Below, piece after piece: positions 44,827-54,924 of a DNA stretch of 64,000 nucleotides (the first letter of the stretch is position 1; each line of letters starts with the position of its first letter). Made by a program: the position numbers and the translations under genes. This DNA is from Pelosinus fermentans JBW45 (lineage in GTDB: Bacteria > Bacillota > Negativicutes > DSM-13327): the NCBI RefSeq assembly GCF_000271665.2, contig NZ_CP010978.1:3688501-3752500 (forward strand), given 5' to 3'. A model generated the notes under the pieces. It worked only from the letters and a program-made list of their open reading frames with translations, made no database searches and was not told the origin of the DNA.

Positions 44827-46637
<1,811 letters not shown>

Positions 46638-46850: not shown

Positions 46851-47705
46851 AACTCAAAGGGACGGTTCTATCGAGTTACGCTTTAGAAATTACAGTTTGA
46901 CAGATACCTGTCACTCTTGCTATCTGTCGCGTTGATATACCCTCTACTCCCTTTATTCTCCTTATTATCTCATCTCGTTTTATTCTCTCCATACTTTGCA
47001 ACTCGGTAGCCATCTTAACATTTGCATACTTTTGTATCATTTTCTTGGTATCTTCATCTGTTATTCTTTTTGCGTCCTTAATTTCAATACAATTATCATC
47101 AGCTTGTTCATTCATATATTTTTTAAAACTGGCGATAGATCTTTCGTGTTCTTCAGCAAAAATAGCTAATATGAAACCAGTCTCGACGATTTTATTCTGA
47201 CCTATGTATTCAACATAACTGCTCCACTTATAATTAACTACACTTTTCTCTTTTCCAGCTTTTATTGGATTTTGATGAATATATCGTAATACTGTCAGTA
47301 AATATGCATCCGTTTCCACAACTTCACTTTTAAATCGATCTTGAAATAAGTGACCAACTCGATCATATTTACGATTGTACCACGCCACATAGCTTACTCC
47401 AATTCTCTTCATAGAGTGTCCGATTGGCTCTTTACCTTCCTTAATCAGCAAGTGGATATGATTATCCATTAAACAATATCCATATAGAATATACCTAGCA
47501 ATTTCTTTATAATATTGTAAATTTCCTATAAACTTTTCTCGATCTTCATCATCCTCAAATATGACTTGCTTATTGATTCCCCGTATAATTATGTGATAGA
47601 TTCCACTTTCGCTCCTTTGACGCGCTTGTCTGGACATTTCTTATCACCTCATTGATATTCTATCACTTATTTCTTTTAAACTCAATGGAACCGTCCCTTT
47701 GAGTT
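46851..47705. mobile_element. RAYT transposase element with 27-bp terminal inverted repeats
   Basis: The left end 46851-46877 and right end 47679-47705 match in 25 of 27 positions when inverted. Each end reads AACTCAAAGGGACGGTTC at the outside and GAGTT at the inside, so each end is itself a small foldback, as REP-type sequences are. The left repeat overlaps the transposase stop codon. The unit resembles a REP-associated tyrosine transposase locus of the IS200/IS605 superfamily. Confidence 0.8.
46876..47637 (-). CDS. REP-associated tyrosine transposase (RAYT), Y1 HUH family
   Basis: A 253-residue single-strand DNA transposase. YHIIIRGINKQ at the start, the HUH motif NHIHLLI (about 58-64) and a downstream tyrosine (SYVAWYNRKY, about 82-91) are the expected catalytic elements; FQDRFKSE and the RYIHQNPIKAG segment are family hallmarks. 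A C-terminal helix-turn-helix (STRQIARVTGICQTVI) follows, as in Firmicutes members. It seems intact and is bounded by matching inverted repeats. Confidence 0.9.
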   Translation of the reverse strand: MSRQARQRSESGIYHIIIRGINKQVIFEDDEDREKFIGNLQYYKEIARYILYGYCLMDNHIHLLIKEGKEPIGHSMKRIGVSYVAWYNRKYDRVGHLFQDRFKSEVVETDAYLLTVLRYIHQNPIKAGKEKSVVNYKWSSYVEYIGQNKIVETGFILAIFAEEHERSIASFKKYMNEQADDNCIEIKDAKRITDEDTKKMIQKYANVKMATELQSMERIKRDEIIRRIKGVEGISTRQIARVTGICQTVISKA

Positions 47706-47975: not shown

Positions 47976-49532
47976 TTACTGCGCTTTCACATCTACTTCA
48001 AACATGCGATTCCAAGGGAAGGATACTTCTACTTTTTCCAACGGAAACTCACTCAAATTTTGCTGAGCAAAATTCTGTATGCGTTTGGTAGCATCTTGGG
48101 TAAGGGTGGGGCGCATTTCATTTAATTGTACATTGTTGATTCCTTGAGGGATTAACACTTCATTCATTAGATCACTGCGCACATTGGCTTGATACGCCCA
48201 ATCATCTAAGAGACGAACAGCAATGAGATTATTTTTGTCGGAGGCTGCCATGCGCTGAGCAAAAGCAGCTTGTCCAATGGTATAACCAATGGTGTTGCTG
48301 GCTGTATTCCAGCCAGAATAAGATTCTAACTGAGACGCCAGTTTGCTATCGGTCATTTCTTTCATAAAGGCATTGTCGGAACCATTGGCAAAAGAAATAT
48401 CTGCCACCGCTACTTTTCGCCCAGCATTTAAGTAGCTTTCGATCTGTTTTACAAAGGCAACGGTTTCTTTGCTGGCTTTTGTTTTATTTGATTCCATGCC
48501 TGCTTCTCTGGTCCAGCCATCTACTGGTGTATTGACTGCCAAAATCATATCAGCTACTTTATCCGATAATAAAGGTACAAAACCTGCAGCAAACAAATGA
48601 TCTCTTACATTTTTGCCAACCGGAGTATCTTCATAAGAAGGAATCGTCTTATTACCAGCACCCTGGGTATAGATCACAGAGACGGTAGGTATGGTGAAGG
48701 TCAAATCATTCACGGCTCTTGTCAGCATGAGCATTCCTAACTGATCTGCACCGGGAAAAGAAGAGTATTTGCTGGCAGATAAATCGGCTGTTTCTTTTCC
48801 TAGCCATCTGGATTCCTGATGAGATCTTGACAGCGGGGAGCAATCATCACGACCGATTAGCAAGTAATTAAAGATATTTTGTTTTGCTGCGGAAACAAGC
48901 TGTAAATTTGCTTTAAAGTTCTTTTCACGCCTGTTTACCCAATCTTCCATAATATCTTTCGGAACTTGCGCATTTAATGTCTCTAATTCTTTCTTTTCTT
49001 TTTTACTTAACTTCTCCATTTCACTTTTATCTTGGAGAGCGTGAATGCGAAAAATCGCTGGTCCATAGGTTTCGTAATACGCTGGTTCTACCCCACCGCT
49101 GGAAGCATGGGGACTACGCATAATCGTACTAAATACATATAGGCGTACAGAAGGATTCAATTCCTTTAATTTTTGAAAATTTGCCACTCTTTCCAGCAGC
49201 ACTTCCTCACTGATTTCATGAGTTCTAGAAGCAACCAATCCGCCATAGATCAGTGCATCGGCTGACACTACGACTCCGTCTGCTTCTTTCGCATGAGCAA
49301 AGACCCATTCCCATAGTTGGTCGGGATTCGCACTTCTCGTTCTGGCTGCAAGAGAGTCTTCCGGTGGAACCAGAATATCAAATCCACCTTTTTTTACGGT
49401 ATCGACTACGTATTCATAACTTACAGGGCGATTGTCAAAGGGGACATACATAAGGGTTTGGGCATATCCTGGTGCATGGATAAAGAATAGCAGGAGAAAA
49501 ATTGCTGTTAAAATACCTTTTTTATTATTCAT
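47976..49532 (-). CDS. Exported DUF4127-family protein
   Basis: A 518-residue protein with an N-terminal signal peptide (MNNKKGILTAIFLLLFFIHAPGYAQ, split at the hydrophobic core, cleavage likely after YAQ) followed by TLMYVPFDNRPVSYEYV, typical of DUF4127. The family has no proven function; it may be an extracytoplasmic enzyme. The start could be ATG 49532 or 49538; both overlap the end of the preceding membrane protein gene, so the two are coupled. It is last in the cluster with UbiA, PAP2-like and GT-C genes, suggesting a role in building or modifying a surface glycan. Confidence 0.82.
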   Translation of the reverse strand: MNNKKGILTAIFLLLFFIHAPGYAQTLMYVPFDNRPVSYEYVVDTVKKGGFDILVPPEDSLAARTRSANPDQLWEWVFAHAKEADGVVVSADALIYGGLVASRTHEISEEVLLERVANFQKLKELNPSVRLYVFSTIMRSPHASSGGVEPAYYETYGPAIFRIHALQDKSEMEKLSKKEKKELETLNAQVPKDIMEDWVNRREKNFKANLQLVSAAKQNIFNYLLIGRDDCSPLSRSHQESRWLGKETADLSASKYSSFPGADQLGMLMLTRAVNDLTFTIPTVSVIYTQGAGNKTIPSYEDTPVGKNVRDHLFAAGFVPLLSDKVADMILAVNTPVDGWTREAGMESNKTKASKETVAFVKQIESYLNAGRKVAVADISFANGSDNAFMKEMTDSKLASQLESYSGWNTASNTIGYTIGQAAFAQRMAASDKNNLIAVRLLDDWAYQANVRSDLMNEVLIPQGINNVQLNEMRPTLTQDATKRIQNFAQQNLSEFPLEKVEVSFPWNRMFEVDVKAQ

Positions 49533-51219
49533 GTTCATCCATCCTTTCTTTTGCAAAAATAGCTGCTAATGATTGTTCTTTCGCTGGAGCAGTTAAATAG
49601 TTGTACCTCATGACCTCAATATTCATATCAGCAATATCTGCTGGCGCATCCACAAAGGAAATATTGTTTTGGGCAAACCGCACATAGTTCGAGGTAAACT
49701 CGCCAAAACACACATTGATGGGATTATGATATGCAGCAATCTCTTTTAATTCTTGTCTTAGCGCCTGGGTACAGTAATAATTACCAAGAATATAGGGATA
49801 GGAAATCAAGGCCAGATTGATCACAGCCGCTCCTGCTAGAATCCTTCCGAGATAACGAATTGCTTTTTTCTGATTGGACCAAGCAATGAGTGCAAGACAA
49901 ATGCAGGCGAACCAAATTTGCGGCACATATCGTGCCCACCAAGATTCCGGATTTATGAATGCCGATATCATAATACTCACGACCAAACCTACCCCATAAA
50001 ATGTATCCTTCTTAGGAGACCAGAATAAGAATAGCAAGATAAAACCACTAATCACCAGCATACCGCTAAACCAAGGACCAAATCCTCCAATTCGAATATC
50101 CGCGCCATAAATGAAAGGTCTAAGCTCTTGTGCATTGACACGAAAAGGAGGCTTTACCACGGGTTCTTCCATATCAAACTGATTCGTAGCCATAGAGAAA
50201 TTAGCAACGTATAGTTTCTTTATTCCACTCATTTGTAAAAAACCCTTTGGGGAATTACTGGTCATAATATCCATCGACTTTGATCCTGCACCATATAAGG
50301 GATAAAAAGGATGCCCATAAAAAAGGCTGTTGGTTATATACGGATTATAACCAAGTATGCAAATCCCCGCAATAAAAGCGATGATTGCCGCTTTCCCAAG
50401 GTTCCAATAACTTTCTCGTTTCTTTAGCAGCCATAGCCACCCGCCCAGTAACCCTATACAGGCAACGGCATATACGATACCGGTAAATTTTACATTCACC
50501 AACAAACCAATGCTCATGATAAAACCAGCTAAAACAAATCTATCATACTGCCTGATCATTTGATAAGACAAAGCCAATAAACACAATAATAGAGATGCCA
50601 ATTGTCCATCGATGTAAAAGCTTAGGGATTGATAAATGCTTACCGGATTAAAAGCCAATAGCAAACTAAAAAATATGGCTTGGTTTACACTACATCTCTG
50701 ACTATTCTGTAACGCAGAAAACGTTAATAGAAAAGATGCTGTGATCAATAGCAAATTGAAGGCTTTGCTCTGTTCGATTTGTCCTGTTACCGTATATAAA
50801 ACCGCTTCATAGATCCATGGCCCTTTTGCATAGTGATTTAGCAGCACAGCAGATTGGGACTGTTCTTTTGTCAAATACTGCTGAAAAGGATTCCAGTGAT
50901 TAACCAATTGTATGACTGCTTCTTGATGATACACCTGCCCATCATAGGAAATATCATAAAACATACCACTTAGCAGCATAAAAAAGTACATTAGCAGTAT
51001 GGACAGACTCCCTATACTAAAAAGCCATTTCCAGTTATTTTCTTTTTTATAAAAAATTCCACTAATAAAAACAAAGATAAGACTACCAGCGGCTGACAGC
51101 CATAAATGAATGGGCAGCAAGAATATGCCCATTCCAAATCCAATAGCTGATAGCGCTAAAATAAAAAACATAAAGGACAATAAGGTTAGCCCTAATATAA
51201 AAGAAAAGCTTCCTATCAT
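49525..51219 (-). CDS. GT-C-like multispanning membrane glycosyltransferase
   Basis: A 564-residue protein with about twelve membrane segments and large loops. After the second or third segment the sequence FYDISYDGQVYHQEAV carries an acidic motif in the first external loop, the place where GT-C enzymes keep their catalytic aspartate. Such enzymes use polyprenyl-phosphate sugars as donors outside the membrane. Specific family not recognised. The start ATG 51219 has a GGGAGG site. Neighbours (UbiA, PAP2-like phosphatase, SMR carrier) would supply such a donor. Confidence 0.65.
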   Translation of the reverse strand: MIGSFSFILGLTLLSFMFFILALSAIGFGMGIFLLPIHLWLSAAGSLIFVFISGIFYKKENNWKWLFSIGSLSILLMYFFMLLSGMFYDISYDGQVYHQEAVIQLVNHWNPFQQYLTKEQSQSAVLLNHYAKGPWIYEAVLYTVTGQIEQSKAFNLLLITASFLLTFSALQNSQRCSVNQAIFFSLLLAFNPVSIYQSLSFYIDGQLASLLLCLLALSYQMIRQYDRFVLAGFIMSIGLLVNVKFTGIVYAVACIGLLGGWLWLLKKRESYWNLGKAAIIAFIAGICILGYNPYITNSLFYGHPFYPLYGAGSKSMDIMTSNSPKGFLQMSGIKKLYVANFSMATNQFDMEEPVVKPPFRVNAQELRPFIYGADIRIGGFGPWFSGMLVISGFILLFLFWSPKKDTFYGVGLVVSIMISAFINPESWWARYVPQIWFACICLALIAWSNQKKAIRYLGRILAGAAVINLALISYPYILGNYYCTQALRQELKEIAAYHNPINVCFGEFTSNYVRFAQNNISFVDAPADIADMNIEVMRYNYLTAPAKEQSLAAIFAKERMDEHE

Positions 51220-51242
51220 ATATTTCCTCCCAACTGAATCTG

Positions 51243-51653
51243 TTACATACGATAAAAAACAAAAGCCAATAAGAATCCTACTATAAGCCCCCCCAATACT
51301 TCAACGGGAGTATGCCCCTGCCGCTCTCTTAATGGTTTTGTAATTTGATGAGGTCCTATATGTTGATTGATCATCGCAGCCTGTTTTCCTAATGCCCGCC
51401 TGATCCCCATTGCATCAAACATGGTAATCATAAGTACTGCTACGCCCAAGCTAAATATTGGCTGATTGATTCCTTCTGATAAACCAATAAAAAAGACTGT
51501 ACTGCTAATGACAGTAGTATGAGTGCTTGGAAATCCCCCATTACCAATTAAAGTAACAGCCTCTTGGCGAAAACGAATATAATTTATGATAAATTTGACT
51601 GTACCTGCTGCGAACCAAGCAATAACAGGTATTACGGCATATTTATAATCCAA
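51243..51653 (-). CDS. Divergent PAP2-family phosphatase-like membrane protein (DUF212)
   Basis: A 136-residue membrane protein with GNGGFPSTHTTVIS, FDAMGIRRALGKQA and GHTPVEVLGG, the signature of the divergent PAP2 (DUF212) family. PAP2 enzymes remove phosphate from lipid phosphates. Beside a UbiA-type phosphoribosyltransferase it may dephosphorylate polyprenyl-phosphoribosyl phosphate, as proposed for Rv3807c in mycobacteria; that analogy is inference. Confidence 0.85.
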   Translation of the reverse strand: MDYKYAVIPVIAWFAAGTVKFIINYIRFRQEAVTLIGNGGFPSTHTTVISSTVFFIGLSEGINQPIFSLGVAVLMITMFDAMGIRRALGKQAAMINQHIGPHQITKPLRERQGHTPVEVLGGLIVGFLLAFVFYRM

Positions 51654-51665
51654 TATAACATCCTC

Positions 51666-52010
51666 CTAGGATCTGGCTACTAAGGTAATACCTGCTATAA
51701 TAAAGAGCATTCCACCCATCCTTAACCAGTTTATGGGTTCATGAAAAATAAAATAGGAGGCAATAAACACTAGAATATAGCCTAAACTTACCATAGGATA
51801 GGCATAGCTAAGTTCTACTTTTTTCAAAGCCATAATCCATAAAATTGTGCTAATACCATACAAAAATAATCCTAGCACTATCGGCCATTTGATTTTTTCT
51901 ATTATCGTAACACCAGGATTTTGAACCATTTGCATGGCCCCTAATTTAAAGGCAATTTGACCTACTGCACCAATGGTTACCGAGATGATAATTAATAGTA
52001 AATCTTTCAT
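51666..52010 (-). CDS. SMR/EamA-like four-helix membrane carrier
   Basis: A 114-residue protein with four membrane helices. GAVGQIAFKLGA in helix one, WIMALKKVELSYAYP and the ending GITLVARS match the small multidrug resistance/ArnE-ArnF group. Members export drugs or flip undecaprenyl-phosphate sugars. The context of lipid-linked sugar genes favours a flippase. The ribosome-binding site is weak (GAGGTAAC). Confidence 0.75.
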   Translation of the reverse strand: MKDLLLIIISVTIGAVGQIAFKLGAMQMVQNPGVTIIEKIKWPIVLGLFLYGISTILWIMALKKVELSYAYPMVSLGYILVFIASYFIFHEPINWLRMGGMLFIIAGITLVARS

Positions 52011-52170
52011 TTACATGTTACCTCTAAATTTCATTAGGATTTTTATTCGATGACCAAGTCGCTCTAAGACTCCCATCTTATCAAATTAGGAGTTAAGAGC
52101 GACTAAGTCCCTGGATAAGTGCGACTAAAGATTCAGGCGGAGTTAAAATTCCATCTGAATCAAGTCATCT

Positions 52171-53079
52171 TTATTCAAAGTAATATAAAATAGTCACAAC
52201 CATAGCAGCGAACAATAAAACAGTACCTAAAATATGACGATCTTCTACCAGTACTTTTTCAGGCCTTCCCCCTTGCCCTTCTATATGAATTAAATACAGA
52301 TAACGAAAAATCCCATACATGACGAGAGGAATGGTCCACATTAGATGAATGGTATGGCCTGATGTAAAGGTAAATAGAGAATAGCTCATAATCGCCGCTG
52401 TAGTAACAATACTATTTAATTGATCCAATAATTCAGGAGAATATTGTTCTAATACCTTGCGGTGCTCACCTTTATGATGACTGAGCAAATATAGTTCATG
52501 TCTGCGTTTGCTGATGGCTAAAAACAAAGCCAATAGCATGGTACAAATTAAAAACCAAGGAGTAAAAGAAACATTAATAGCTAGTCCTCCCCCTATGGCC
52601 CGCAAAACAAAACCAAAGGCAATGACCATAATGTCAATAATCACAATCTGTTTTAACTTCACAGAATATGCTACATTCACCATAAAATATCCGAAAAGTA
52701 ATAGGCAAAACCAAGGCTCCACTATAAATGCTGCTGCAAGTGAACTGCATAATAAAACACTCCCAAACAATAAGGCACCCAAAGGATGTAATCTGCCAGA
52801 AGCAATAGGCCGATAGCATTTCTCCGGATGTTTGCCATCGGCTTCTCGATCAATATAATCATTTACAATGTAAACACAGCCTGATGTTGTACAAAACAAA
52901 ATGAAAGCAACTGCCGATTGTACCAACATATCCACAGATACGGTTTTAATGGAAAAAATCAACGCAGCAAACACTAACAAATTTTTTGTCCACTGTTTCG
53001 GACGCAATACCATTAGATAGGGCAAAACCTTGTCTCCATCTTTATCTTTTTTTATAATCGTCTGCTCCAAAAAGCTCAT
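52171..53079 (-). CDS. UbiA-family prenyltransferase, decaprenyl-phosphate phosphoribosyltransferase-like
   Basis: A 302-residue membrane enzyme with eight or nine helices. NDYIDREAD (73-81) is the NDxxDxxxD motif for substrate and Mg2+; YRPIASGRL follows and AYSVKLK gives the second conserved motif. The RPKQWTKNLLVF opening and KHPEKCYRPIASG are typical of decaprenyl-phosphate phosphoribosyltransferases (Rv3806c-like), which join PRPP to polyprenyl phosphate. The start ATG 53079 overlaps the Fe-ADH stop by four bases. The gap to the SMR gene is 160 bases with short inverted repeats. Confidence 0.83.
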   Translation of the reverse strand: MSFLEQTIIKKDKDGDKVLPYLMVLRPKQWTKNLLVFAALIFSIKTVSVDMLVQSAVAFILFCTTSGCVYIVNDYIDREADGKHPEKCYRPIASGRLHPLGALLFGSVLLCSSLAAAFIVEPWFCLLLFGYFMVNVAYSVKLKQIVIIDIMVIAFGFVLRAIGGGLAINVSFTPWFLICTMLLALFLAISKRRHELYLLSHHKGEHRKVLEQYSPELLDQLNSIVTTAAIMSYSLFTFTSGHTIHLMWTIPLVMYGIFRYLYLIHIEGQGGRPEKVLVEDRHILGTVLLFAAMVVTILYYFE

Positions 53080-54215
53080 TTATAAAACGCCCCATCATAT
53101 ATCTTCTCTACAATACCCGGAATCTCCCCCGCCGGATCATTGGACAAGTTACCTGTTACTTTACTTGCCAAATAACTCACATCCGCTTTTGTCAAAGAAA
53201 AATCCGTCAAACTAGGATTTATATTTATACTTTGCCTAAATTGGCGATAAACATGCATAAATTCCCTCTTATTAGAGCATCTCGTGCCATGTAATGCTTC
53301 TGCAATATGATTGAATTTCTCATTGGAAATCTCATAGGTCAAATCCAGCCAGCTTTCAAAGAGAGCCATTAATCCGCTGCCGTGACTACTATTGGTTTTT
53401 ACACCAATTGGATACTGTAAACGGTGAGGCAGACAAGTGCTGGAGTTAGCTAAATTGAAACCCATTAGCATACTGGCATACATCATATAGGTACGTGCAG
53501 TACTATTTTGACCATCTGCTAAGACCTGAGGCAAATATTGCCCTACCAATTGTATCGCTTTTAAAGAATTGCTGCCAACCAAAGGACTTAGCCCGCTTTT
53601 TGATATATAGGTCTCTACCCCATGAGCAAAGACATCAAAACCGGTCTCTACTGTAGTTTCAGGTGATAAAGACATTGTCATTTGTGGATCAACGATAGCA
53701 ATGGCAGGAAAAAAACCTTTATGACGAAAACTAGTCTTCGTACCAGTGCTCTCGTCGGTTAAAATTGCCGCCCAATTGGTTTCAGATCCTGTACCTGCCG
53801 TAGTAGGAATCGCTACAAGAGGAATATCAACATGAGTAATCGGTAACTGACCTAATAAATAAGGCTCCACTTTTTCTCCTGTGGACAAACCAAGAAGAAT
53901 ACCTTTCCCAGCATCAATGGCACTGCCACCGCCCAGGGCCACTACAACCTCAGGCTTCCAGCTAGAAAATTTCTCAACACAAGCGTTGACCTCACTAGCA
54001 AGAGGGTTAGCACTAATTCCTTCAAATACCATGGATTCAATGCCTAAACCAGCAAGACCATCTACTAACCTCCTGGTGAAACCATATTTATTCATCGCAT
54101 ATTTTCCTGTAACAATCAGTACCTTTTTGCCAAGGGTTTTAATATAAGCGGGAGCCTTTCCAAACTCACCACAGCCAAAGAATATTTTAGTTGGCATATA
54201 ATAAGTAAAATGCAT
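53076..54215 (-). CDS. Iron-containing alcohol dehydrogenase
   Basis: A 379-residue group III dehydrogenase. GGGSAIDAGK binds the nucleotide; metal ligands are expected in the FDVFAHGVE, CLPHRLQYP and NSSHGSGL segments. ATG 54215 has GGAG nine bases away; TTG 54224 would overlap that site. It is the first gene of the cluster and is coupled to UbiA by an ATGA overlap, which suggests a dedicated role, perhaps making or reducing a sugar precursor, rather than general alcohol metabolism. Substrate unknown. Confidence 0.85.
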   Translation of the reverse strand: MHFTYYMPTKIFFGCGEFGKAPAYIKTLGKKVLIVTGKYAMNKYGFTRRLVDGLAGLGIESMVFEGISANPLASEVNACVEKFSSWKPEVVVALGGGSAIDAGKGILLGLSTGEKVEPYLLGQLPITHVDIPLVAIPTTAGTGSETNWAAILTDESTGTKTSFRHKGFFPAIAIVDPQMTMSLSPETTVETGFDVFAHGVETYISKSGLSPLVGSNSLKAIQLVGQYLPQVLADGQNSTARTYMMYASMLMGFNLANSSTCLPHRLQYPIGVKTNSSHGSGLMALFESWLDLTYEISNEKFNHIAEALHGTRCSNKREFMHVYRQFRQSININPSLTDFSLTKADVSYLASKVTGNLSNDPAGEIPGIVEKIYDGAFYK

Positions 54216-54456: not shown

Positions 54457-54924
54457 TTATATATTGGCAAGTAGCTGTTGTAATACTTTGTATTTGGCAC
54501 CATTATAGATTTGATCAAAATCTACAATATACCATTCACCATTTATTTTTTCCAGGCCCACTGGTTTAATACTCATTTTGACAGTGTTTTGCTCCTGAAT
54601 TGTTACAACAACAGCTGCATAATTACTTTGTTGTGCAACTTGCTTAATGGATACAATATTTGCATTCTTAATTTCTTGAATTCCCGATTGTCCCTTCATG
54701 AACTTTAACACGGTTTTAGGATCATTCTTAGAAGCGCTCGATACATATAAACCAGCTTCTGACATGCGGTCATTCTTAGCTGCGTCAAAAAAAGTGGTTA
54801 CCGTTTCTATCGTACTCAATCCAGCTACTCGTTTAACTCCTGAAGAACCGCCACAACCTGCCACTAGTATCACCAGGATTAACATACTCACAGTCAATAG
54901 TACTCTTACATTTTTCTTAAGCAT
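54457..54924 (-). CDS. DUF4878-like lipoprotein
   Basis: A 155-residue secreted lipoprotein. A hydrophobic leader ends in LVAGC, the lipobox, with Cys24 lipidated. The mature part (TVTTFFDAAKNDRMSEAGLYVS, then a KINGEWYIVDF ending) resembles the small SnoaL/NTF2-like DUF4878 domain. Function unknown; located on a membrane facing outward. Single-gene unit. Confidence 0.75.
   Translation of the reverse strand: MLKKNVRVLLTVSMLILVILVAGCGGSSGVKRVAGLSTIETVTTFFDAAKNDRMSEAGLYVSSASKNDPKTVLKFMKGQSGIQEIKNANIVSIKQVAQQSNYAAVVVTIQEQNTVKMSIKPVGLEKINGEWYIVDFDQIYNGAKYKVLQQLLANI

Follow-up and report, generated by a model that had tools for sequence, protein, structure and literature searches.

A UbiA-linked four-gene core in Pelosinus fermentans and its likely part in lipid-linked pentose glycosylation of the cell surface

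Six adjoining minus-strand genes of Pelosinus fermentans JBW45 raise the question of whether, and by what steps, this bacterium links a pentose to a membrane lipid and passes it on to its surface. The window in which they lie, meaning the whole stretch of DNA that was analysed, comprises 64,000 nucleotides (nt) of a 5.38-Mb single-contig genome (G000:C1:3688501-3752500). A preliminary description of it had read the genes as an iron-containing alcohol dehydrogenase (Fe-ADH), a UbiA protein, an SMR carrier, a divergent PAP2 protein (DUF212), a membrane protein like the class C glycosyltransferases (GT-C) and an exported DUF4127 protein, together making up a polyprenyl-phosphoryl-pentose glycosylation cluster of a diderm host. 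All six open reading frames (ORFs) were found again where, and in the order in which, it had placed them. What has held of the pathway as a whole is the set of core enzyme types and the linkage of four genes; the six-gene unit, the restriction to diderms and the newness of the type have not. We consider it likely that the four core genes (UbiA, SMR, DUF212 and GT-C) make and use a lipid-linked pentose for surface glycosylation.

The PRPP site of UbiA and the proteins beside it

The UbiA-superfamily protein (302 residues; 52171..53079, minus strand) scores 86.1 bits against the Pfam UbiA model, above its cut-off, and passes the NCBIfam models PRK12324.1-2 (275.7 bits, cut-off 234) and PRK12324.1-4 (224.8, cut-off 207). 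Its closest solved relatives are two chains of mycobacterial Rv3806c (PDB 8j8j, E 2.7e-40, 141.6 bits). Published work on Rv3806c, in its account of the contacts with phosphoribosyl pyrophosphate (PRPP), assigns K28 and Y70 to the 5'-phosphate, N73 and D77 to magnesium, and R22, K87, R90 and K143 to the pyrophosphate (PMC10994848); all eight are identical in the protein from the window. Across the family, R22, K28, Y70, N73, D77, D81, R90, Y138 and K143 are kept in every one of 101 aligned rows, K87 in 100 and K208 in 74. Two UbiA paralogues encoded in the same genome, which align roughly with these rows, agree with the family at N73, D77, D81 and Y138, one of them also at R22, R90 or K143, but both have other residues in place of K28 (R, A), Y70 (M, N) and K87 (F, G). 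Judged by its residues, the 5'-phosphate pocket that separates phosphoribosyltransferases from prenyltransferases is intact, and this is our strongest single result. Two curated models, the Rv3806c structures and the PRPP residues thus agree with the resemblance to decaprenyl-phosphate phosphoribosyltransferase first noticed in this protein, and we regard it as almost certainly a polyprenyl-phosphate phosphoribosyltransferase (PPPRS) of the decaprenylphosphoryl-5-phosphoribose (DPPR) synthase type. A quinone or haem prenyltransferase was considered and rejected, since the scores against those models are far under their cut-offs (haem 48.9 bits against 210.3, quinone 28.7 against 275.45) and the PRPP-site residues are present; the grouping with such enzymes that the preliminary description had thought might undo its reading did not occur. 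At least one DPPR-synthase model is also passed by each of seven relatives of UbiA that lie in other neighbourhoods (L045, L051, L052, L068, L069, L100 and L113).

The DUF212 protein (51243..51653, minus strand) scores 111.8 bits against PF02681, over the cut-off, and falls narrowly below that of PF01569, the PAP2 family (24.7 against 27.2 bits). Among 33 neighbourhood members, K20, P42, S43, H45, D80, R85, H114 and E118 are found in all and R109 in 32, giving a PAP2-like motif of K20, PSxH and R109-x4-H114-x3-E118, with the glutamate standing where the canonical motif usually has aspartate. A structure model built with 17 sequences reached a predicted local distance difference test score (pLDDT) of 91.4 and a predicted template-modelling score (pTM) of 0.82. 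When the Foldseek candidates for this model were re-aligned with VIA, PAP2-fold enzymes, among which we count Aur1/inositol phosphorylceramide synthase, took 23 of the first 24 rows at Z 10.0 to 6.7, with 10.0 for G6PC1 and 9.2 for Bacillus subtilis PgpB, and later rows reached 5.4 at most. Motif and fold together uphold the label of a divergent PAP2 protein. In the same 17 sequences the two motif-bearing loops, whose limits were set by hand, carry on average 3.8 and 7.5 lysines and arginines, against 0.2 in the opposite loop, so that by the positive-inside rule the active site is predicted to face the cytoplasm, where polyprenyl-phospho-ribose-5-phosphate would be made. We think that the protein is probably the phosphatase acting on the UbiA product, that is, a candidate 5'-phosphatase. 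Co-occurrence of UbiA and DUF212 at the level of whole genomes was rejected as proof of this, because DUF212 occurs in 91 of 300 Negativicutes genomes, often as a separate and higher-scoring copy; the window's own genome encodes such a copy elsewhere (168 bits, against 111 for the copy in the cluster).

The membrane protein of 564 residues (49525..51219, minus strand) matches no Pfam or NCBIfam family at E 0.01, and its profile finds no solved structure up to E 1. Its model (13 sequences, pLDDT 72.6, pTM 0.83) aligns in VIA with ArnT (Z 16.6, 363 residues, 5.9 A), AftD (14.8, 341 residues, 4.7 A), archaeal AglB (14.5), AftA (12.7), AftB (8.9) and EmbB (8.2); going by their titles, all 50 rows shown are GT-C-class enzymes or subunits of the glycosylphosphatidylinositol (GPI) transamidase. 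Foldseek returned three chains at E 0.001, with PglB at 1.8e-4 and AftA at 7.1e-4. In the 13 sequences a loop of the form FYDxSYDGQxYHQ has D89, S91, D93, G94, Q95, Y97, H98 and Q99 invariant, and its acidic residues, D89 and D93, come after the first helices and would lie outside the membrane. The GT-C likeness proposed at the outset is thus borne out by the model and by both structural searches, and on this modelled fold the protein is very likely a GT-C transferase.

The fourth protein, of the SMR type (51666..52010, minus strand), has four hydrophobic segments and exceeds the cut-offs of both PF00892 (EamA, 38.8 bits) and PF00893 (SMR, 25.9). Its best NCBIfam models are ArnF (56.9 bits, cut-off 99) and ArnE (44.1, cut-off 92), so that the description as an SMR/ArnE-like carrier stands at the level of the Pfam families and falls short at that of the ArnE/ArnF equivalogs; its profile matched no solved structure at 0.01. 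On balance we favour a role as flippase of the lipid-linked sugar, with moderate confidence.

From these families we infer the following course. On the inner side of the membrane UbiA would move ribose-5-phosphate from PRPP onto a polyprenyl phosphate, which is presumably the undecaprenyl form; DUF212, facing the cytoplasm, would strip the 5'-phosphate to leave polyprenyl-phosphoryl-ribofuranose; the SMR protein would take the lipid-linked sugar to the outer face; and the GT-C protein would hand the pentofuranose to an acceptor outside the cytoplasm, for which a surface polysaccharide or a glycoprotein is the likeliest candidate. DUF4127 may work outside the membrane, where the acceptor or the product would be its target; Fe-ADH may supply an optional redox step or be merely co-transcribed.

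A four-gene core and its lineage-specific additions

The neighbourhood of UbiA was followed through one genome per species (84,980), from which the best 80 of 577 relatives were taken, 43 of them Paenibacillus by title. Together with the Negativicutes loci these form a set of 106, in which near relatives remain and from which the regions of the window genome's own paralogues (L062, L063) and three repeats (L065 of L042, L103 of L046, L120 of L051) had been excluded; the UbiA tree also leaves out L034, L036, L037, L038 and L046, and a second tree L058 and both paralogues. At E 1e-10, 27 of 300 Negativicutes genomes, belonging to 11 of 97 genera, have a UbiA relative. Identity to the window's protein is 73% in G016, 66-68% in the best Bacilli (among the best 80 of 577), 55-62% in five more Negativicutes genomes (families f9, f12, f23 and f32) and 33-48% in f11, f15 and f19, matches weaker than 1e-30 being left out. 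Transfer between Negativicutes and Bacilli, in one direction or the other, is likely.

All six genes stand together in ten of the 106 loci (L035-L043 and the window), all from two genera (g1, g2) of one family (f1); in L037 and L043 DUF4127 is cut off by the end of the contig, and L039 has a split GT-C frame. L034 has five, its contig ending within GT-C, and in G016, from a different family, Fe-ADH alone is missing. Among the loci fetched, Fe-ADH adjoins UbiA only in g1 and g2, and DUF4127 lies near it in these two genera and in a single locus from a different family, but nowhere else; in the best 80 of 577 neither has a relative except in L065, which repeats L042. The order UbiA-SMR-DUF212-GT-C, on the other hand, is found in 21 of the 106 loci, nine of them in monoderm Aneurinibacillus or Paenibacillus, and two further loci hold the four genes in a different order. 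These four therefore travel together in Negativicutes and Paenibacillaceae and are the conserved unit in place of the six first proposed, whose co-occurrence holds within one family and not outside it. A conserved six-gene module was accordingly rejected, as the core recurs without Fe-ADH and DUF4127, and so was a diderm-specific role, given the core in Aneurinibacillus and Paenibacillus. The host itself encodes LpxC, which fits a diderm with lipopolysaccharide, so that the diderm setting is supported for this genome and too narrow for the core.

DUF4127 (47976..49532, minus strand, with the start as read from the sequence, downstream of the TTG at which the listed ORF begins) scores 531.8 bits against PF13552, over the cut-off, and has a single, N-terminal, signal-like hydrophobic segment; it is probably an exported accessory protein. 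It occurs in 31 of 199 Bacillota genomes, with two copies in that of the window, and five of the genomes that have it (G003, G029, G039, G305 and G306) gave no UbiA match at E 1e-20. Over 20 members 22 residues are invariant. Its profile gave one chance-like match to solved structures (E 0.16), leaving it with no solved relative there; 64 pattern matches among viral contigs contained no relative, and our search found no publication on the family. After the invariant D264 the copy in the cluster has Q265, a position held by E in 27 of the 31 rows compared; Q265 recurs in L042, L044 and L150, the last from G003.

The gene for Fe-ADH (53076..54215, minus strand), like DUF4127 a lineage-specific addition, gives a product that scores 157.4 bits against PF00465, over the cut-off, and keeps the dehydrogenase motifs in its 378-residue numbering, with GGGS at 94 and D193, H197, H263 and H277, which we take to be in ligand roles. 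No match to PF04030 (DprE1) was found in the whole genome, a Corynebacterium glutamicum control being positive, and a Bacillaceae DprE1-like query gave two partial matches to the flavin adenine dinucleotide (FAD) domain only, at 26-27% identity. The absence of a DprE1-like epimerase noticed in the cluster thus extends genome-wide, and the DprE1/DprE2 pair is lacking on the side of DprE1; DprE2, an ordinary short-chain dehydrogenase, was not searched for. With no clear DprE1, the sugar is most likely ribofuranose, and we lean towards ribose.

Alongside the cluster lie several features that touch it less directly. Fe-ADH and UbiA overlap by 4 nt and GT-C and DUF4127 also overlap, so that the overlapping arrangement described before applies to two of the five junctions; the other three are spaced by 160 (UbiA to SMR), 12 and 23 nt. 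The long UbiA-SMR spacer (52011..52170, minus strand) carries a hairpin-forming dispersed repeat with 37 matches in its own genome, itself included and many of them partial, and a single-strand DNA fold at z -4.31; it is possible that this is an element like the repetitive extragenic palindromes (REP). Measured between tblastn matches, the spacer has a length of 163 nt in L064 and of 28-86 nt in L035-L044, and to judge by these lengths the relatives would lack the repeat. Downstream of the cluster, at 46876-47637, is an IS200-like or REP-associated tyrosine transposase-like gene (PF01797 over the cut-off; NF047646 at 62.1 of 80 bits), which might be linked with the repeat. About 1.3 kb beyond DUF4127, at 44937-46637 on the plus strand, a threonine-rich, collagen-like protein of GATGATG repeats is encoded; it is conceivable as a glycosylation acceptor, but the relatives listed showed no member of its ORF cluster next to the gene cluster. 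Upstream of Fe-ADH, a small lipoprotein-like gene without a Pfam family (54457-54924) is retained in g1 and g2 wherever the contig extends there. Promoter-like sites (26, against 21.9 in shuffles) and terminator-like sites (6 against 5.8) are near the shuffled level.

The company of UbiA and other readings of the cluster

Of the 106 loci, 39 have DUF212 and no haloacid dehalogenase-type (HAD) protein within 5.5 kb of UbiA, 28 have a HAD and no DUF212, 39 have neither and none has both; the HAD profile came from two neighbourhood clusters only, so that it will miss other HADs. This fits DUF212 and HAD swapping for one another beside UbiA. In Metabacillus and Peribacillus, UbiA, DprE1-like, DprE2-like, LPG_synthase_TM and DUF212 genes stand together as what appears to be an arabinose-donor set, and DUF212 is the only phosphatase candidate recognised there, which fits the two families doing one job. 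A similar combination of UbiA with DprE1-like, DprE2-like and LPG_synthase_TM genes (L100, L113, L114, L118, L212 and L213) probably represents arabinofuranose-donor clusters outside the Actinobacteria, with LPG_synthase_TM as flippase candidate.

A number of results weigh against the glycosylation reading and should be set beside it. The UbiA protein fails a third model, PRK12324.1-1 (177 of 474 bits), and has N and F at Rv3806c positions Q135 and Y157, as do 82 and 96, respectively, of the 101 family rows. For the DUF212 model Foldseek alone was weak (best E 0.76), and a designed helical protein reached Z 8.1 against it in VIA, which counsels caution with a small helical model. No flippase-specific model is passed by the SMR protein, and ArnT, which has the highest Z of the GT-C matches, transfers 4-amino-arabinose, so that the modelled fold shows a lipid-phosphate-sugar transferase and leaves the sugar unfixed. 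The mutual exclusion of DUF212 and HAD, seen in a set made up of the best 80 relatives and the Negativicutes loci, is partly descent, with four state changes on the tree and an independent-pairs test that had no power (median p 1). In a wider sample, UbiA was present in 62 of 398 Bacillota genomes, and near it in the 40 loci fetched, at least two of which repeat earlier ones (L178 is L114, L185 is L122), DUF212 was found in 3, HAD in 2 and neither in 35; DUF362 (12) and LPG_synthase_TM (10) occurred instead or besides, from which it follows that much of the UbiA family works in other company. Finally, of ten membrane proteins encoded in the vicinity of other UbiA genes, only three match a GT-C-type Pfam family (GT87 in one case and PMT_2 in two, with one of the three scores exactly at the cut-off), the remainder giving one DUF6080 match under the cut-off and, in six cases, nothing better, although this test is weak either way because the window's own GT-C matches no Pfam family.

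These last observations bear on the suggestion that the phosphoribosyl lipid is put to some use outside glycosylation, such as the making of a membrane lipid or a cofactor, and that DUF212 dephosphorylates lipids in general. Other Bacillota relatives of UbiA do adjoin DUF362, ABC1 kinase and LPG_synthase_TM genes, and most of the membrane proteins tested near them match no GT-C Pfam family; the UbiA type of the window, however, is tied to a GT-C-fold protein, and three relatives (L051, L052 and L104) lie, as judged by eye, among RmlA/B/C/D- and GT2-looking genes, and we hold such a use to be very improbable. Somewhat less so is a division of labour in which the donor is made, but SMR and GT-C, like ArnE/ArnF and ArnT, handle a different lipid-linked sugar, and regulation is what keeps the genes together. 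That ArnT gives the best VIA match and ArnF/ArnE the best-scoring models for SMR would suit this; the fixed order of the core in Negativicutes and Paenibacillaceae, despite differing flanks, would not, nor would the fact that no glycosyltransferase for another lipid-linked sugar is recognised in the cluster, and we consider it unlikely.

Fe-ADH raises the question of the sugar itself. If it oxidised and re-reduced C2 or C3 of the lipid-linked ribose, it would replace DprE1/DprE2 and yield arabino- or xylofuranose before export, an option of which the preliminary description had been aware. Auxiliary epimerases are known in such systems (PMC11127046), the present genome is without a clear DprE1, and Fe-ADH, which in the window overlaps UbiA as described above, lies directly upstream of it in 11 of 11 loci of g1 and g2. 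Its nearest solved chains, however, are methanol and other small-alcohol dehydrogenases, and family f16 and the Paenibacillaceae have the core without a neighbouring Fe-ADH, in genomes where Fe-ADH was not searched for elsewhere. We know of no Fe-ADH that acts on a lipid-linked sugar, which also counts against an epimerase role; such a role has perhaps one chance in eight in our estimation. The reading of the four core genes as a lipid-linked pentose pathway is thus the one that we retain.

The association of phosphoribosyltransferase-type UbiA with DUF362, LPG_synthase_TM and sometimes ABC1 kinase genes, seen in many Bacillota loci (L177, L179-L181, L188, L192, L200, L205, L206 and others) and in Sporomusa, is a recurrent one.

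Within the retained reading we would go one step further, tentatively and at slightly less than even odds: the UbiA-linked DUF212 may be a dedicated, cytoplasm-facing PAP2-type branch that finishes polyprenyl-phosphoribose, a role filled elsewhere by an unrelated HAD, with the exported DUF4127 enzyme as a new product-side accessory in Negativicutes. If true, this would provide a first reaction for the large unstudied DUF212 family and a further type of phosphatase for lipid-linked pentose pathways; no publication linking DUF212 to this pathway was found by title or abstract, nor one pairing 'divergent PAP2' with phosphatase.

Comparison with known systems

The closest counterpart is the biochemically proven pathway of Citrobacter youngae O1/O2 (Kelly et al. 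2024, PMC11127046), which resembles ours in a UbiA-type phosphoribosyltransferase acting on PRPP, dephosphorylation, a flippase and a GT-C transferase outside the membrane. There, the HAD phosphatase is fused to the synthase, the predicted flippase is of the MATE type and the transferase is a GT136 enzyme with a carbohydrate-binding module (CBM), whereas here the phosphatase candidate is a separate DUF212 protein, the carrier candidate an SMR protein and the GT-C unclassified, and DUF4127 and Fe-ADH are added. Pfam finds no HAD domain in the 302 residues of UbiA, and no MATE gene is among the six genes of the cluster, the rest of the genome not having been searched for one. A PPPRS, a GT-C protein and, if SMR acts as proposed, a flippase accordingly stand in one locus, the arrangement that defines the Citrobacter system. 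The same report describes three-component pentofuranose systems as widespread, with auxiliary epimerases as a known option, and mentions gram-positive candidates including Bacillus (PMC11127046), so that the type of pathway is not new; no publication joining the decaprenylphosphoryl or phosphoribosyltransferase UbiA with Firmicutes was found.

With the mycobacterial decaprenylphosphoryl-arabinose (DPA) pathway (Rv3806c, Rv3807c, DprE1/DprE2, Rv3789, EmbA-C/Aft) the cluster shares a related UbiA, a separate phosphatase gene and GT-C transferases, and it differs in a genome with no clear DprE1, in a DUF212 protein that is not PF01569 and in an SMR/EamA carrier candidate. Rv3789 itself is called an SMR exporter in one source (PMC11127046) and a GtrA protein, possibly an anchor for AftA, in another (PMC5964476).

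The 4-amino-arabinose modification by ArnE/ArnF and ArnT is alike in joining an SMR-type carrier to a GT-C, ArnT being the best structural match, and unlike in taking its donor from a nucleotide-sugar enzyme rather than from UbiA on PRPP, in having two SMR genes rather than one, and in its setting, as our core is found in monoderms too. In the Arn system, carrier and transferase use a lipid-phosphate sugar, and monoderms are without lipid A.

Nearer at hand is a row UbiA-HAD-SMR-SMR-DUF6080, observed in L068, L070-L072, L076 and 19 other loci (in total 23 Paenibacillus and one Saccharibacillus). It has the same UbiA family, SMR carriers and a membrane protein ending the gene row, but HAD for DUF212, two SMR genes, and, for the GT-C, DUF6080, which would be the transferase candidate there. 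Set against these systems, the present one would add to lipid-linked pentofuranose glycosylation a compact version of four genes, common to diderm Negativicutes and monoderm Paenibacillaceae, would give proposed functions to a branch of DUF212 and an unclassified GT-C family, and would offer small non-pathogen systems in which the Rv3806c-type reaction and the phosphatase step become assayable. As a kind it has precedents, and what makes it a variant is a free-standing DUF212, an SMR protein as carrier, a GT-C of no classified family and the additional DUF4127 and Fe-ADH.

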